NCBI RefSeq assembly: GCF_018919065.1 | Contig: NZ_JAHLQG010000024.1 | Coordinates: forward strand, 1 to 64,000 | Length of the DNA: 64,000 nucleotides | Source of the DNA: Blautia sp. MSJ-9 | GTDB taxonomy: Bacteria; Bacillota; Clostridia; Lachnospirales; Lachnospiraceae | Reading direction: 5' to 3' | Shown here: positions 52,838-59,566 of the stretch, piece by piece | Layout: each line of letters opens with the position of its first letter | Position numbering within the stretch: the first letter of the stretch is position 1 | Notes under the pieces: generated by a model | Database searches by the model: none | The model's input: only the letters and a program-made list of their open reading frames with translations | What the model was told of the DNA's origin: nothing | Translations under genes and position numbers: made by a program

Positions 52838-53899
52838 TCAGTGTAGTTTTGTTTTTCTGTCATAAGATTTACTGAATACTATACCACATTTCTCATGGTG
52901 TGAACAGCTTTTGACATAGATATTTACTCTGAAAATACAGTAAATGATCAGTAATGTCATTCCATATACACACAATGGTCGCAACCAGAGCCAGCATCCA
53001 ATTCTGCTGATTCCTGTGCAGCCAGAGATTCTTTTCGCAGCATCAGCCACTGCAGGATGAATCAGATAAACGGGAAACGCATACTTCTGTCCTGCTTCTG
53101 CCAGCACCTGCGGAAATGTTTTTTTCCTTCCATATAATATAAGCCAGATAAACAGACAGATGACCGTAATACAGTTTCCCAGATAAATCTCTCTGGCTCC
53201 CTGCAGACAGTATTCCAGAACACTGAGTATGATCCCTGACACAATCCCTGCAACAAACTTTCGTTCTATACTCTCTGACAGTCTCTGTTCCAGTTTATCC
53301 TGCTTCTCGTGGATCATCTGCCCCATAAGATAAAAACTCATACCTGTAAACAAAAAGTTTCTGTATTCCATCGTATGGTAAAATCCACCTGCAAATCTGC
53401 AGAACTCTGCTCTCCACAAAAGTACCACAGATAATATCGGAATGCAGCAGTACGCCGCCTTTCTGATATGCAGCTTTTCGATACAGAAATCAACCGCATA
53501 ACAGTAAATAAGTGCAGGCAAAAACCACAGATGTGCCCTGACAGGTGAAGTACTGTTATAAAAAACAAATTCCTTCAGATGCTCTATATCCGTAAGTTCT
53601 TTTATCCACTCTGCCGCATTCCCTCCGCCTGAAACTTTCATCAGATATTCCCAGCCAAAATAAAACAGGATAGATACTGCAAAGAGTTTCAGGATATGTA
53701 TGATCTTAAAGGGTATCTTAACTGCAGCATTATTGTTTTCATAATAGCAGAAATATCCGGATACCATAAAGAAAAATGGCACTGCACATCTGGCAAATAC
53801 TTTTATGATCTGACCTGTCTCTCCTGGAAAGCTTACATGAATACAGACTACCAGAAATGCTGCTATTGCTTTTGCCACATCCAGACTTTTGTTCCTCAT
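52838..53899 (-). CDS. Acyltransferase family 3 membrane protein
   Basis: The 353-residue protein has about ten hydrophobic segments and starts KSLDVAKAIAAFLVVCIHVS, with the conserved His of the acyltransferase_3 family, then RCAVPFFFMVSGYF. These enzymes O-acetylate surface sugars or peptidoglycan-linked polymers, or act in export. GTGAT precedes the ATG weakly. It lies alone, with a 27-bp repeat just upstream. Confidence 0.88.
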   Translation of the reverse strand: MRNKSLDVAKAIAAFLVVCIHVSFPGETGQIIKVFARCAVPFFFMVSGYFCYYENNNAAVKIPFKIIHILKLFAVSILFYFGWEYLMKVSGGGNAAEWIKELTDIEHLKEFVFYNSTSPVRAHLWFLPALIYCYAVDFCIEKLHIRKAAYCCIPILSVVLLWRAEFCRFAGGFYHTMEYRNFLFTGMSFYLMGQMIHEKQDKLEQRLSESIERKFVAGIVSGIILSVLEYCLQGAREIYLGNCITVICLFIWLILYGRKKTFPQVLAEAGQKYAFPVYLIHPAVADAAKRISGCTGISRIGCWLWLRPLCVYGMTLLIIYCIFRVNIYVKSCSHHEKCGIVFSKSYDRKTKLH

Positions 53900-54011: not shown

Positions 54012-54767
54012 TCAGGCAGATGGAGCACCCAGAAGCCAGCTTTTATCTACTCTGGCAAGAAGTCTGGCATTGTGATACGCCATCCGCAATGTCAGGCAGG
54101 TCCGGCCCAGATATTTGCTTCCATCGGGTGTCTTCATACATGCCAGTGCCAGATCCGGCCTGCCCGGGTGTCTCAGACAGATAGGGATCAGTAACTGGAT
54201 AGAATGATTGTAATACTGCGGGATCGCAGTCTTATAATCTGCCTCCAGCATCCGTCTGGTCTGCTTCAGTGCCCCGTCAAACAGCTGCAGACGCATGCTG
54301 CTTTCCCGCACTTCTTTTGGCAGACGCGCTGCATTCTCTTCATCTCCGAATATGTGATCATACTGTGGGATGACCGGAAGCTTCGTGTCAAATACAAGAT
54401 CTGACGGATTCTCTACATAGCTTGCTTTTTCCGGCAGACTGGTGATTCCTTCTTTTAATAAATAATATTCTGTGTAAAATCCATCCAGAAACCACGGCTG
54501 CCTGTCCGGAACCAGATTGGGAATAAAGTACGCATAGATCGGCTGATAATAGTAATTAAAGAGTCCTGTATTAAATATGGCATAATTCTTTCTCTCCCAC
54601 ACCTTCTGTTCTTCATAAAGACGTTTAAATGTATGCTCCAGATATCCTTTCAGGATTCCGTTATCTTCTGTATCCGAAAAACTCCACTTCTCCGGCACCA
54701 TCCTTGCCAGATTCTGGATCTGACGGTTATAATCACCGCAGTAAGTAAAATCGAATAAATTGATCAT
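54012..54767 (-). CDS. DUF3825 domain protein
   Basis: The 251-residue cytosolic protein matches the DUF3825 pattern: NYAIFNTGLFNYYYQPIYAY, QPWFLDGFYTEYYLL, YDHIFGDEENAARLP, a tyrosine/asparagine-rich IPQYYNHSIQLLIPI and the ending LTLRMAYHNARLLARV. AGGAGG lies 6 bases before the ATG. DUF3825 appears in proteins linked to RNA or conflict functions, but its activity is not established. Single gene. Confidence 0.75.
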   Translation of the reverse strand: MINLFDFTYCGDYNRQIQNLARMVPEKWSFSDTEDNGILKGYLEHTFKRLYEEQKVWERKNYAIFNTGLFNYYYQPIYAYFIPNLVPDRQPWFLDGFYTEYYLLKEGITSLPEKASYVENPSDLVFDTKLPVIPQYDHIFGDEENAARLPKEVRESSMRLQLFDGALKQTRRMLEADYKTAIPQYYNHSIQLLIPICLRHPGRPDLALACMKTPDGSKYLGRTCLTLRMAYHNARLLARVDKSWLLGAPSA

Positions 54768-55126: not shown

Positions 55127-56308
55127 ATGAAAAAAGACGGCTACTACTCTTCCGGAGAATTTGCACGGATGGCTCATGTAACGCTCCGGACCATCCGTTA
55201 TTATGATAAACAGAATATCCTCAAACCCTCCTATGTGACAGAATCCGGGGCACGTTTCTACACAGATGAGGATTTCGCCAGACTTTCCCAGATCCTGCTT
55301 CTGAAATATCTGGGATTCTCTCTGGACGATATCCGGGAGATGACCATTGATGATTCGGATTATCATTTCATGGAGAACTCTCTGAACATTCAGCTGAAAC
55401 TGGTGCGTGACCGCATCGAGCAGATGCAGCTGGTAGAAAAAGCAATCCAGGATACTACAGAAGCAATCCGCTCCCAACATGCCATTGACTGGAATCAGAT
55501 GCTTGACCTGATCCATCTGACCGGCATGGAAAAGAGCATGAAGAATCAGTACCAGAATGCATCCAATATTTCTTCCCGTATCAATCTCCACAGTCTCTAC
55601 TCCCAGAATAAGCAGGGATGGTTTCCATGGATTTATGAACAGTGCCACATTCAGCCCGGTATGCGGATTCTGGAATTAGGATGTGGCGACGGAGCTCTGT
55701 GGGCACAGAATATCCAGTTCCTTCCCCAGGATATTTCGGTTACACTTTCCGATCTGTCTTCGGGAATGCTCCGTGATGCCAGACGTGCCATCGGGCGAAA
55801 GGACAGCCGTTTCTCTTTTGAGGTATTTGACTGCGCAGAAATTCCTCATGAAGACTGCTACTTTGATCTGGTGATCGCCAACCATGTACTGTTTTACTGC
55901 GAGAATATTCCTGCTGTATGCAATGAGATCCGCAGGGTGCTTGTCCCAGGCGGCAGGCTTGTATGCAGTACTTACGGAAGCAGACATATGCAGGAAGTCA
56001 GTCAGCTGGTACAGAATTTCGACGACCGCATTGTCCTCTCTGCTGACAGACTGTATGAACGTTTCGGCAGAGAAAACGGAGCTGCGATACTGAATCCGTA
56101 TTTTTCCCATATTTCCTGGGAATCCTATAAGGACTCCCTTCTTGTCCCGGATGCAGAACCGCTGATCTCCTATATTCTTTCCTGCCATGGAAACCAGAAT
56201 CAGTATCTTCTGGACAGATATAAGGATTTCCGTGGATTCGTATCACGAAAAACAAAGGATGGCTTCTTCATTACAAAAGATGCAGGCATTTTTCTTTGTG
56301 AAAAATAA
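55127..56308 (+). CDS. MerR-family regulator fused to a SAM-dependent methyltransferase
   Basis: I use the ATG at 55127 (MKKDGYYSSGEFARMAHV), with AGAAGG 7 bases upstream, giving 393 residues. Residues 5-75 are a MerR winged helix (VTLRTIRYYDKQNILKPSYV, SGARFYTDEDFARLSQI), 80-115 the dimerisation helix, and about 180-290 a class I methyltransferase with motif I (ILELGCGDGALW), LSDLSSGML and VIANHVLFYCENI. Such one-piece designs could sense SAM or a methyl acceptor. A MerR-type promoter with a palindromic 19-bp spacer lies just after the gene, in front of rmlA. Confidence 0.85.
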   Translation: MKKDGYYSSGEFARMAHVTLRTIRYYDKQNILKPSYVTESGARFYTDEDFARLSQILLLKYLGFSLDDIREMTIDDSDYHFMENSLNIQLKLVRDRIEQMQLVEKAIQDTTEAIRSQHAIDWNQMLDLIHLTGMEKSMKNQYQNASNISSRINLHSLYSQNKQGWFPWIYEQCHIQPGMRILELGCGDGALWAQNIQFLPQDISVTLSDLSSGMLRDARRAIGRKDSRFSFEVFDCAEIPHEDCYFDLVIANHVLFYCENIPAVCNEIRRVLVPGGRLVCSTYGSRHMQEVSQLVQNFDDRIVLSADRLYERFGRENGAAILNPYFSHISWESYKDSLLVPDAEPLISYILSCHGNQNQYLLDRYKDFRGFVSRKTKDGFFITKDAGIFLCEK

Positions 56309-56337
56309 CCAAATTTTAACTTTTTTGTAAAAAGCAC

Positions 56338-56368
56338 TTGAAGGTGACCTTAGGTCACCTTTTATAAT
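56338..56368 (+). promoter_or_regulatory. MerR-type promoter with palindromic 19-bp spacer upstream of rmlA
   Basis: TTGAAG (56338-56343) and TATAAT (56363-56368) are 19 bases apart. The palindrome AAGGTGACC-TTA-GGTCACCTT (56341-56361) fills the spacer. An over-long spacer occupied by the operator is the hallmark of promoters activated by DNA distortion by MerR-family proteins. The start of transcription would be about 155 bases before rmlA. Confidence 0.8.
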
Positions 56369-56532
56369 ACAATTACCAAAGTCAGGAATATATCGTAAAT
56401 CAGCCTGACAATCCAGAAACCCGTTGAACCAGCCAGTATCGTAACAGTCTGATATTCCACTTATCATTTACACAGATAACTGACGAAATATCACCCTAAC
56501 TACGTACTGACAAATGAAAAAGGAGAATACAA

Positions 56533-57429
56533 ATGAAAGGTATTATTTTAGCAGGCGGTTCCGGCACACGCCTCTACCCGCTCACCATGGTAACATCCAA
56601 GCAGCTTCTGCCAATCTATGATAAACCAATGATCTACTATCCAATGTCTGTACTGATGAACGCAGGGATCCGTGATATCCTGATCATCTCTACTCCACAG
56701 GATACCCCACGTTTCGAAGAACTTCTGGGTGACGGACATCAGTTTGGTGTTCATCTCACCTACGCCGTACAGCCAAGCCCGGATGGACTTGCACAGGCCT
56801 TTATCATTGGCGAGGAATTTATCGGTAATGACACAGTTGCCATGGTTCTTGGCGATAACATTTTCGCAGGACATGGTCTGAAGAAGAGACTTCAGGCTGC
56901 TGTACAGAATGCAGAATCAGGCGAAGGCGCTACTGTATTCGGATACTATGTAGATGATCCGGAGAGATTCGGCATTGTGGAATTTGACAAAGAAGGCAAA
57001 GCCATCTCTATTGAAGAGAAACCGGAACATCCGAAGAGCAATTACTGTGTAACAGGATTATATTTCTATGACAACCGTGTTGTAGAATATGCAAAGAATC
57101 TGAAACCAAGTGCCAGAGGCGAGCTTGAGATCACAGACCTCAACCGCATTTATCTGGAAAAAAACGAATTAAACGTTGAACTTCTCGGTCAGGGATTCAC
57201 ATGGCTGGATACCGGCACACATGAGAGCCTCGTAGAAGCCACAAACTTCGTAAAAACTATGGAAAGCCACCAGCACCGCAAGATTGGATGCCTGGAAGAG
57301 ATCGCATATCTCAATGGATGGATCACAAAAGAGGATGTGCTGAAAGTTTATGAAGTACTGAAAAAGAACCAGTATGGCCAGTATCTGAAAGATGTACTGG
57401 ATGGCAAATACCTGGATGTACTTCACTAA
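56533..57429 (+). CDS. rmlA: Glucose-1-phosphate thymidylyltransferase
   Basis: The enzyme makes dTDP-glucose for rhamnose. The 298-residue protein has [46 protein letters not shown] and [12 protein letters not shown], as in standard RmlA (RfbA). AAGGAG precedes the ATG. It is followed by 160 bases with two perfect hairpins before rmlB, so the genes may be differently expressed. Confidence 0.96.
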
Positions 57430-57592: not shown

Positions 57593-58621
57593 ATGAATAT
57601 TATCGTAACCGGCGGTGCCGGATTTATCGGAAGCAACTTTATTTTTCACATGTTAAAGAAATACCCGGACTATCGTATCATCTGTCTGGACTGCCTGACA
57701 TATGCAGGAAACCTTTCCACTCTTGCTCCTGTTATGGACAACCCGAATTTCCGTTTTGTTAAGGAAAGCATCACAGACCGCGAAGCTGTTTACAAACTCT
57801 TCGAAGAAGAACATCCTGACATGGTTGTAAACTTCGCAGCAGAAAGCCACGTAGACCGTTCCATTGAAAACCCGGAAGTTTTCCTTACTACTAACATTAT
57901 TGGTACTGCTGTCCTCATGGACGCATGCCGTAAATACGGAATCAAACGTTACCATCAGGTATCCACTGACGAAGTATACGGAGATCTGCCACTAGACAGA
58001 CCTGACCTGTTCTTCACAGAGGAAACTCCGATCCACACCAGCAGCCCTTACAGCTCTTCCAAAGCTTCTGCAGACCTTCTGGTACTTGCTTACCACAGAA
58101 CTTACGGACTGCCTGTATCCATCAGCCGCTGCTCCAACAACTACGGACCATATCATTTCCCGGAAAAACTGATTCCGTTAATGATCGCCAACGCATTAAA
58201 TGACAAACCACTTCCAGTATACGGAACAGGCGAAAATGTTCGTGACTGGCTCTATGTAGAAGACCACTGCCGTGCCATCGACCTGATCATCCACAAAGGA
58301 CGTGTAGGAGAAGTTTACAATGTAGGCGGACACAATGAAATGACAAACATTGATATCGTTAAGATCATCTGTAAAGAACTCGGCAAACCGGAAAGCCTGA
58401 TCACATACGTAGCAGACCGTAAAGGACACGATATGCGTTATGCGATTGACCCGACTAAGATTCACAACGAACTGGGATGGTTACCGGAAACTAAATTCGC
58501 AGACGGTATCAAGAAGACTATCAAATGGTATCTCGAGAACAAAGAATGGTGGGAAACTATCATCTCCGGTGAATACCAGAACTACTATGAAAAAATGTAC
58601 GCACACCGCGGGGAGGCATAA
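57593..58621 (+). CDS. rmlB: dTDP-glucose 4,6-dehydratase
   Basis: The 342-residue short-chain dehydrogenase has VTGGAGFIGSNFIFHML, NFAAESHVDRSIENP, the catalytic STDEVYGDL and YSSSKASADLL (Tyr-x3-Lys), and RCSNNYGPYHFPEKLIP. It makes dTDP-4-keto-6-deoxyglucose. AAAGGAG precedes the ATG. rmlD follows after three bases. Confidence 0.96.
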   Translation: MNIIVTGGAGFIGSNFIFHMLKKYPDYRIICLDCLTYAGNLSTLAPVMDNPNFRFVKESITDREAVYKLFEEEHPDMVVNFAAESHVDRSIENPEVFLTTNIIGTAVLMDACRKYGIKRYHQVSTDEVYGDLPLDRPDLFFTEETPIHTSSPYSSSKASADLLVLAYHRTYGLPVSISRCSNNYGPYHFPEKLIPLMIANALNDKPLPVYGTGENVRDWLYVEDHCRAIDLIIHKGRVGEVYNVGGHNEMTNIDIVKIICKELGKPESLITYVADRKGHDMRYAIDPTKIHNELGWLPETKFADGIKKTIKWYLENKEWWETIISGEYQNYYEKMYAHRGEA

Positions 58622-58624
58622 ATT

Positions 58625-59566
58625 ATGAAAGTTTTTGTAACAGGTGTAGGCGGTCAGCTCGGACATGATGTTATGAATGAACTTGCGAAACGCAGCTATG
58701 AAGGTGTAGGAAGCGATATCGCTCCTTCCTACAGCGGAATTGCTGACGGTACTGCAGTTACCACAATGCCTTATGTACAGATGGATATCACTGATAAAGC
58801 TTCTGTAGAAAAAGTCATCAAAGAAGCAAAGGTTGATGCAGTGATCCACTGCGCTGCATGGACAGCTGTAGACGCTGCCGAAGATGAGGAAAATCAGCCG
58901 AAAGTCCGCCTTGTAAATGTAACCGGAACCCAGAATATTGCTGATGTGTGCAAAGAGCTTGACATCAAGATGCTGTATCTGTCCACTGACTATGTGTTCG
59001 ATGGTCAGGGAACCACTCCATGGGAGCCGGACTGCAAAGACTATAAACCATTAAATGTCTATGGACAGACAAAGCTGGACGGTGAACTTGCCGTATCCGG
59101 CACAGTTGATAAGTTCTTTATCGTCCGTATTGCATGGGTATTCGGCAAAAACGGCAAGAACTTTATCAAAACCATGATCAACCTCGGAAAAACTCATGAT
59201 ACTCTCTCCGTAGTCAATGACCAGATCGGTACACCTACTTATACCTATGACCTGGCAAGACTTCTGGTAGATATGATTGAAACTGAAAAATACGGTTATT
59301 ATCATGCAACCAATGAGGGCGGATATATCAGCTGGTATGATTTCACAAAAGAAATCTTCCGTCAGGCCGCTGCCATGGGACACCCGGAATATCTCCCGGA
59401 AAACATGACAGTCAACTCCGTCACAACTGCAGAGTATGGCGCTTCCAAAGCAGCCAGACCGTTTAACAGCCGCCTGGATAAGAGCAAACTGACAGCCAAT
59501 GGTTTCACACCACTCCCCACCTGGCAGGATGCACTGGGACGTTATCTCAAGGAACTGGATTTCTAA
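58625..59566 (+). CDS. rmlD: dTDP-4-dehydrorhamnose reductase
   Basis: The 313-residue protein has MKVFVTGVGGQLGHDVMNE, CAAWTAVDAAEDE, LSTDYVFDGQG and YGQTKLDGELAV, standard for RmlD. It makes dTDP-L-rhamnose in the last step. GGGGAGG in the end of rmlB serves its start. The epimerase rmlC, needed between RmlB and RmlD, is absent from this cluster. Confidence 0.94.
   Translation: MKVFVTGVGGQLGHDVMNELAKRSYEGVGSDIAPSYSGIADGTAVTTMPYVQMDITDKASVEKVIKEAKVDAVIHCAAWTAVDAAEDEENQPKVRLVNVTGTQNIADVCKELDIKMLYLSTDYVFDGQGTTPWEPDCKDYKPLNVYGQTKLDGELAVSGTVDKFFIVRIAWVFGKNGKNFIKTMINLGKTHDTLSVVNDQIGTPTYTYDLARLLVDMIETEKYGYYHATNEGGYISWYDFTKEIFRQAAAMGHPEYLPENMTVNSVTTAEYGASKAARPFNSRLDKSKLTANGFTPLPTWQDALGRYLKELDF

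Follow-up and report, generated by a model that had tools for sequence, protein, structure and literature searches.

Many Gram-positive bacteria have polysaccharides containing rhamnose among their surface components. In the stretch of 64 000 nt of Blautia sp. MSJ-9 DNA analysed here (the window), a gene for a MerR-type protein fused to a methyltransferase is followed on the same strand by genes for dTDP-L-rhamnose synthesis. This locus raises the question of whether the fusion controls these genes, at which DNA element it does so, and what it senses. From comparisons of genome sequences, we consider it probable (roughly 0.8) that the fusion is a MerR-type one-component regulator of dTDP-L-rhamnose synthesis, with the methyltransferase domain as its sensor.

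The fusion protein and the downstream rml genes

The fusion gene extends on the plus strand from ATG at 55127 to a stop codon ending at 56308 and encodes 393 amino acids; the start in the open reading frame list was TTG 55043, but homologues align from ATG 55127 instead. The initial annotation had placed a MerR domain and a class I SAM methyltransferase in one 393-residue protein, and the Pfam search agrees. MerR_1 (PF13411) covers residues 7–72 (E 4.5e-18, 65.5 bits, above cut-off), PF00376 matches the N-terminus at 39.8 bits (above cut-off), and Methyltransf_11 (PF08241) covers residues 182–280 (E 8.9e-18, above cut-off). The protein can thus be divided into a wHTH (residues about 7–72, based on Pfam), a probable linker or dimerization helix (about 75–130, judging by how MtaN and 3hh0 align), a class I SAM methyltransferase core (about 175–300) and a conserved C-terminal part (301–393). 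For the N-terminus, 3hh0 is the nearest solved relative together with the activators MtaN, TipA and BmrR, and the profile alignment continues past the wHTH into the putative helix, up to residue 111 with MtaN and 124 with 3hh0. Among the homologues listed from named genome contigs, the closest is a Blautia wexlerae protein with 92% identity.

The fusion scored below the cut-off of each of the NCBIfam models for MerR, ZntR, CueR and CadR-PbrR. Among the 25 best of 64 NCBIfam families, no named methyltransferase equivalog reached its cut-off, the best being BioC with 71.8 bits (cut-off 184.95), and no GyrI-like or TipAS effector domain was among the 17 Pfam families listed. The possibility of a DNA methyltransferase was set aside, since the Pfam matches are to general small-molecule-type families. 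Upstream of the fusion gene, and pointing away from it, are genes for a DUF3825 protein (54012–54767) and a membrane protein (52838–53899), the latter with a weak resemblance to the membrane part of VanT, below the NCBIfam cut-off.

The next gene on the strand is rmlA, as the initial annotation had stated, encoding glucose-1-phosphate thymidylyltransferase (56533–57429; TIGR01207, 483 bits, cut-off 360.65). It is followed, also on the plus strand, by rmlB for dTDP-glucose 4,6-dehydratase (57593–58621; TIGR01181, 496 bits, cut-off 365.1) and rmlD for dTDP-4-dehydrorhamnose reductase (58625–59566; TIGR01214, 286.5 bits, cut-off 224.05). The remaining gene of the set, rmlC, is located on another contig of the same genome (C4:66895–67404, L168).

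A MerR-type promoter–operator between the fusion and rmlA

Between the fusion gene and rmlA lies a 31 bp MerR-type promoter–operator on the plus strand (56338–56368, TTGAAG-19 bp-TATAAT), consisting of a ‒35 element TTGAAG (56338–56343), a spacer of 19 bases (56344–56362) and a ‒10 element TATAAT (56363–56368). The perfect palindrome AAGGTGACCTTAGGTCACCTT (56341–56361, 10+1+10, assigned to neither strand) is the putative operator for the MerR domain, and overlaps the final 3 bases of the ‒35 element. Direct reading of the positions confirmed the earlier description of a promoter with a 19-base spacer filled by a palindrome; its location past the fusion stop codon also stood, but the gap to the ‒35 element is 29 bases, not 30. 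The start of rmlA is 164 nt past the ‒10 element, and rmlA is probably the first gene of the regulated operon.

An A-tract lies just 5′ of the ‒35 element (56329–56333, plus strand, positions ‒9 to ‒5). Each of these positions is A in 71–80 of the 85 distinct sites described below, a conservation approaching that of the operator, and the tract could be a UP-like element or a bend helping this promoter.

A chance palindrome was ruled out by three results. At up to three mismatches, the 21-mer had no match in 100 dinucleotide shuffles of the window, and it occurs at one place in the 3.67 Mb genome (84% complete). A generic scan (TTG-19-TA..T, at least 6/9 symmetric pairs) also detected this site alone in the window. 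The region ahead of the window's own fusion gene was searched for an operator and none was found. We also considered whether rmlC is a further target in the genome of the window and rejected this, given that the gene is on contig C4 and the genome's only site is at the fusion locus.

Conservation of the site among homologous loci

We compared 109 homologous loci, consisting of 29 from a draw of 299 family genomes (L003–L031, the best of the matches) and 80 from a genome collection (L032–L111, the best 80 of 175 relatives). The 31-mer was found at up to three mismatches to TTGMANNTGMCNNNNSGKCAYCTTNTATAMT in 94 of the 109. Ten of these are copies as judged from the 81-base context, leaving 84 distinct loci. 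By tblastn count, the gene after the site is rmlA in 75 and rmlB in six, that is, in all 81 readable distinct loci; in the other three the sequence stops within 162 bp past the ‒10 element, at a contig end (L075, L107) or at the end of the flank (L100). The distance from the ‒10 element to the start codon is 20–203 nt (median 72) in the distinct loci. In 76 of the 84, the site follows the fusion at no more than 250 bp; it is 680–2852 bp away in seven and on the opposite strand in one.

For the information content, 85 distinct 91-mers were obtained from 95 of 110 loci (including the window, L002) scoring at least 26/31 to the consensus. The 31-mer carries 1.62 bits per base, compared with 0.69 for the 30 bases upstream, mostly from the A-tract, and 0.22 for the 30 bases downstream. 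The site searches fixed the 19 bp spacing, so that conservation of the spacer length is weak evidence.

Co-inheritance of the fusion and the site

In the family draw, 49 of 299 genomes matched the fusion protein at E ≤ 1e-40. After three with a methyltransferase lacking MerR (G056, G089, G242) were set aside, 46 carriers remained, two of which (G115 and G125) have the paralogue type only (33–34% identity). The site was present at up to two mismatches in 33 of the 46 carriers versus none of the 253 other genomes (Fisher p about 1e-33, relatedness ignored), a test that is not fully independent because the site pattern was partly built from the same genomes. At exactly three mismatches, 20 further genomes gave matches, of which four are carriers and 16 non-carriers. 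Reversed control patterns matched 7/299 family genomes and 6/64 genus genomes at up to three mismatches. Given the 16 non-carriers and the 7/299 of the reversed control, the three-mismatch matches are partly noise. Two of the non-carrier matches directly precede other MerR genes (L120, L136).

Thirteen of the 46 carriers lacked a site at up to two mismatches and nine at three (G073, G108, G111, G125, G132, G174, G194, G243, G266). Of these nine, G125 has the paralogue type, seven belong to a distant clade and gave weaker candidates only, and G174 (76% complete) had no site even with a wider pattern. Since rmlA is present in 254 of the 299 family genomes (E ≤ 1e-70), the site does not simply follow rmlA.

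In the genus draw, the fusion is present in 24 of 64 genomes and the site in all 24 carriers. Matches were found in 3/40 non-carriers. Two of these are inside open reading frames; the third is a perfect site 83 bases from a contig end, and this contig opens with the coding sequence for the C-terminal residues of the fusion. Four genus carriers had an extra three-mismatch match, and the one examined is inside an open reading frame.

As a negative control, we used 20 family genomes without the fusion (no match at E ≤ 1e-40) whose rmlA is 85–92% identical to that of the window. The 500 bp upstream of rmlA contained no site in any of them, with a best score of at most ‒14 bits, compared with at least 38.6 bits for the training sites and 55.3 for the window site. 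Second rmlA copies in three carriers (G194, G263, G127) likewise had no site. In two other carriers, no site precedes the rmlA gene that was examined (G118; G029, with 195 bp upstream readable); the sites in these genomes precede rmlD (in G118) and the fusion.

Sites away from the fusion gene

In 15 of the 109 loci, no site was found in the stretch examined, and 11 of these were then searched genome-wide. The site was detected in 10 of the 11 genomes, the miss being the incomplete G174, and the gene after it was rmlA in all 10 (nine distinct contexts). The fusion and the site are on separate contigs in seven of these genomes and on one contig in three, at distances of 3.7 kb (G302), 3.8 kb (G301) and 10.7 kb (G308). 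In G301 and G302, rmlC is together with rmlABD beside the fusion, rmlABDC being located between the fusion and the site. Sites were also placed for the other four of the 15 loci: before rmlA, they lie 10.7 kb after the fusion in G148 (the same region as G308), 1.5 kb after it in G296 and 1.7 kb from it in G179; in G043, the site is 2.4 kb from the fusion, with rmlB 641 nt further. In G046 (L189:4954), rmlC is preceded by a second operator-like site at a great distance from the fusion, which suggests that the genes of the regulon need not lie together on the chromosome.

Seven carriers from a draw at the level of the order were also checked. Six have the site, before rmlA in five and before rmlB in one (G578), with G611 and G613 matching at three mismatches. 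G604 gave only an unconvincing three-mismatch match, with no rml gene within 1.5 kb, and has the same genus label as one of the carriers listed above without a site at three mismatches. G584 is probably the same assembly as G299, because the coordinates are identical.

These positions bear on a different reading of the palindrome, namely, that it serves the fusion gene as an intrinsic terminator with only the look of an operator. Just past the stop codon, the RNA does form a stable hairpin (81-base stretch, ‒15.3 kcal/mol, z ‒3.0), and TTTT follows. It was, however, not called by the terminator scan, and several half-site positions are identical in 85/85 sites instead of being compensated. The element also tracks rmlA or rmlB, including the seven of 84 loci at 680–2852 bp from the fusion, the one on the other strand, and the 10 genomes where it is farther off or on another contig. 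Because the element stays with the rml genes when the fusion lies elsewhere, the terminator was rejected as extremely improbable.

The co-occurrence of the palindrome with the fusion, for which the initial annotation had proposed a search of genomes, thus held in the family draw (partly circular), in the genus draw and where site and fusion lie apart.

Matched change of recognition helix and operator

We then compared residues 20–21 of the fusion with operator positions 9:17 in an alignment of 96 rows (A1). KK is present at residues 20–21 in nine rows, and the operator is C9:G17 (TGCC/GGCA) in all eight of these with a known site. Rows with R21 have A9:T17 in 73 cases and an asymmetric C9:T17 in two, and 12 rows (nine R21, three paralogues) are without a site at up to three mismatches. 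For two of these eight (L067, L096), the locus itself has no site; a genome search in which either base was allowed recovered TGCC/GGCA for each. A ninth KK case outside A1, G578 (52% identical), carries TGCC/GGCA as well, in a site that precedes rmlB and is located about 10 kb away from the fusion. In addition, C9:G17 is present in the palindrome ahead of the gene in each of three deep paralogues with K21 (L154, L155, L156). On a tree from which the DNA-binding domain was left out, and in which G578 is absent, the KK rows of A1 group as a single clade (95/87), so the change of KK and operator was probably one evolutionary event; for a formal independent-pairs sign test these events are too few to give any power.

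The same change helps to weigh whether a different MerR-family protein binds the site, the fusion being only an adjacent gene or a methyltransferase whose HTH is vestigial. The MerR family is large, and two MerR proteins without a methyltransferase match (L120:688–1476, L136:1555–2355) each have a comparable TGACG-type palindrome directly upstream of the gene that encodes them. Against such a protein, the presence or absence of the site tracks the fusion even where gene and site are apart, the operator changes along with the recognition helix of the fusion itself, and no MerR homologue was flagged in the flanks examined, of up to 1.5 kb on each side, at the 10 sites away from the fusion. We regard binding by another MerR protein as very unlikely. 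Cross-talk of the L120 and L136 proteins with the fusion's sites is possible.

That the protein acts at this site on the rml genes had earlier been an inferred link. It is now strongly supported by co-inheritance, and also by the sites apart from the fusion and the matched change of recognition helix and operator.

Model of regulation

MerR promoters have a 19–20 bp spacer that holds a palindrome and are activated by distortion (PMC9909328, PMC1526738). The element in the window fits these features, and a dimer on the spacer with ligand-dependent activation is therefore expected. By analogy with the MerR family, a dimer of the fusion would sit on the palindrome between the ‒35 and ‒10 elements of the rmlA (or rmlB) promoter, whose 19 bp spacer would be too long for RNA polymerase. 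The C-terminal methyltransferase domain would be occupied by SAM, by a small molecule resembling an acceptor, or by both (the ligand is our guess); the ligand-bound dimer would bend and untwist the spacer and turn the promoter on, while the ligand-free dimer would keep it low.

Alternatively, the fusion might purely repress, blocking the promoter until a ligand releases it, with no distortion-type activation. The palindrome does overlap the ‒35 element by 3 bases, and a MerR-type example, CvkR, is reported in print. In contrast, the 19 bp spacer between good promoter boxes is kept in the matched sites, as a need for distortion would predict, which counts for little given that the search fixed the spacing. 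Pure repression appears unlikely.

The methyltransferase domain as a candidate sensor

Motif I (E-x-G-x-G-x-G) and an acidic motif II are present in the methyltransferase domain. E183, G185, G187, G189 and D209 are identical in 93/93 proteins of the rml clade, and C186 and D235 are conserved in 98%. Y142, R151, H155, W168, N317, G318, Y349 and K384 are common to six relatives without MerR (31–35% identity), one of which is a NUDIX fusion. H253 and H287 are present in 98/98 fusions, the corresponding residues being M and G in five of the six relatives without MerR. SCHGNQ at 352–357 was found in the rml clade only, among the rows compared. This pattern suggests a working SAM site and a specific second pocket. 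The initial annotation had also suggested that the switch couples methylation state or a methyl-acceptor ligand to dTDP-rhamnose production; of this, the sequences show the intact SAM signature, and the coupling itself is a conjecture.

The signal might be SAM or the SAM/SAH ratio, which would tie sugar-nucleotide output to one-carbon status. The SAM signature (E183, G185, G187, D209, D235) is at least 98% conserved in the 93 rml-clade proteins, but Y142, R151, H155, H253, H287, Y349, S352–Q357 and K384, all outside that signature, are equally invariant and therefore indicate a second ligand. We consider a sensor of SAM alone rather unlikely.

A trigger enzyme would be a putatively active methyltransferase whose turnover is followed by transcription, with, for example, a cell-wall precursor, a sugar nucleotide or a foreign compound as substrate. 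The eight residues from Y142 to K384 shared with the six standalone-type relatives are consistent with such activity. The fusions depart from these relatives, however, at the candidate pocket positions H253 and H287, as a changed role would predict, and the gene neighbourhood suggests no substrate. A trigger enzyme is doubtful, if slightly less so than a sensor of SAM alone. Our guess is that an acceptor-like ligand together with SAM ranks first as the signal, followed by a trigger enzyme and then by SAM alone.

At somewhat below even odds, we tentatively propose jointly that the methyltransferase has turned into a sensor and that the fusion belongs, as one branch, to a wider, undescribed class of one-component MerR–methyltransferase regulators whose operators and signals have diverged. 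Occupancy of the active site would then directly set transcription of the rhamnose operon, the occupants being SAM and a specific acceptor, possibly an intermediate of the rhamnose pathway or of the envelope.

Comparison with known regulators

The drug-sensing MerR group (BmrR, Mta, TipAL, SkgA, EcmrR) has GyrI-like or TipAS effector domains. The wHTH and next helix of this group align with those of the fusion (MtaN, TipA and BmrR chains), whereas the effector of the fusion is a class I SAM methyltransferase by Pfam, and its target is a sugar-nucleotide operon instead of efflux or resistance. Ada-type regulators, in which a methyl-transfer domain is likewise joined to transcription control, have a different fold and chemistry. 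A palindrome within a 19 bp spacer is common to the drug-sensing group and the fusion, as described for the family (PMC9909328). The metal-resistance regulators MerR, ZntR, CueR and CadR have a strong palindrome in a 19 or 20 bp spacer, as here (PMC1526738); unlike in these proteins, the C-terminal part of the fusion is a methyltransferase domain.

The MerR plus methyltransferase architecture is already in print. Vibrio cholerae VCA0264 (merR1) is described as a MerR regulator with a C-terminal methyltransferase domain, a likeness by description, and the portion of PMC9662190 at hand gives no target, operator or ligand for it. In the open-licence PMC literature, we found no described MerR–methyltransferase regulator of rml genes, no operator, target or ligand for a MerR–methyltransferase protein, no MerR regulator of rml genes of any kind, and nothing that regulates the supply of dTDP-rhamnose in Blautia or related bacteria. 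The outcome here is a defined regulator, which is carried by gut Blautia and related bacteria, with a defined 31 bp target and a natural specificity variant. If the methyltransferase domain is the sensor, the MerR family would gain a further type of effector domain, and there would be a handle on the ligand.

Distant relatives and paralogues

Several relatives with identities near 50% (L142–L145, L147–L149, L159, L228, L230) have rml genes next to the fusion in the same orientation, and three others (L146, L151, L227) have no rml gene near it. Weak candidate sites (3–5 mismatches, each the best match in 6–10 kb) were found before the fusion in L143, L144, L145, L147, L148, L149 and L159, and before rmlA in L142 and L143. 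The initial annotation had cautioned that in the MerR family the site more often precedes the regulator's own gene, and this holds for the distant relatives with a diverged site before the fusion. G266 has a diverged site (8.6 bits) before rmlA on another contig. As sites precede rmlA, rmlB, rmlC or rmlD across genomes, the pathway appears to be the target.

In the order draw (344 genomes), whole-profile matches outside the family were found in two genomes (G321, G481; 34–36% identity), with no rml genes in the 12–13 kb examined. Seven others outside the family match the methyltransferase part only, three of them in open reading frames of about 430 aa. Among 348 genomes drawn from the phylum, none outside the family matched the whole profile at E ≤ 1e-60. 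In G481 (L226), a two-mismatch site on the minus strand adjoins the distant fusion, 41 nt before a 266-aa open reading frame that is not an rml gene; this frame may be another target for sites of this type.

The deep paralogues L154, L155 and L156 have the same MerR plus methyltransferase architecture, with 33–34% identity to the fusion, and each has a MerR-type palindrome about 30–240 bp upstream of its own gene. They differ from the fusion in their operator sequences and in having no rml genes in the 6–10 kb examined, and may represent a wider class with other signals. Their palindromes (L154:432, L155:5628, L156:4637) are beside TetR, AraC-type or methyltransferase genes. In one relative of the methyltransferase domain (L164:2719–3921), the fusion partner is NUDIX instead of MerR.
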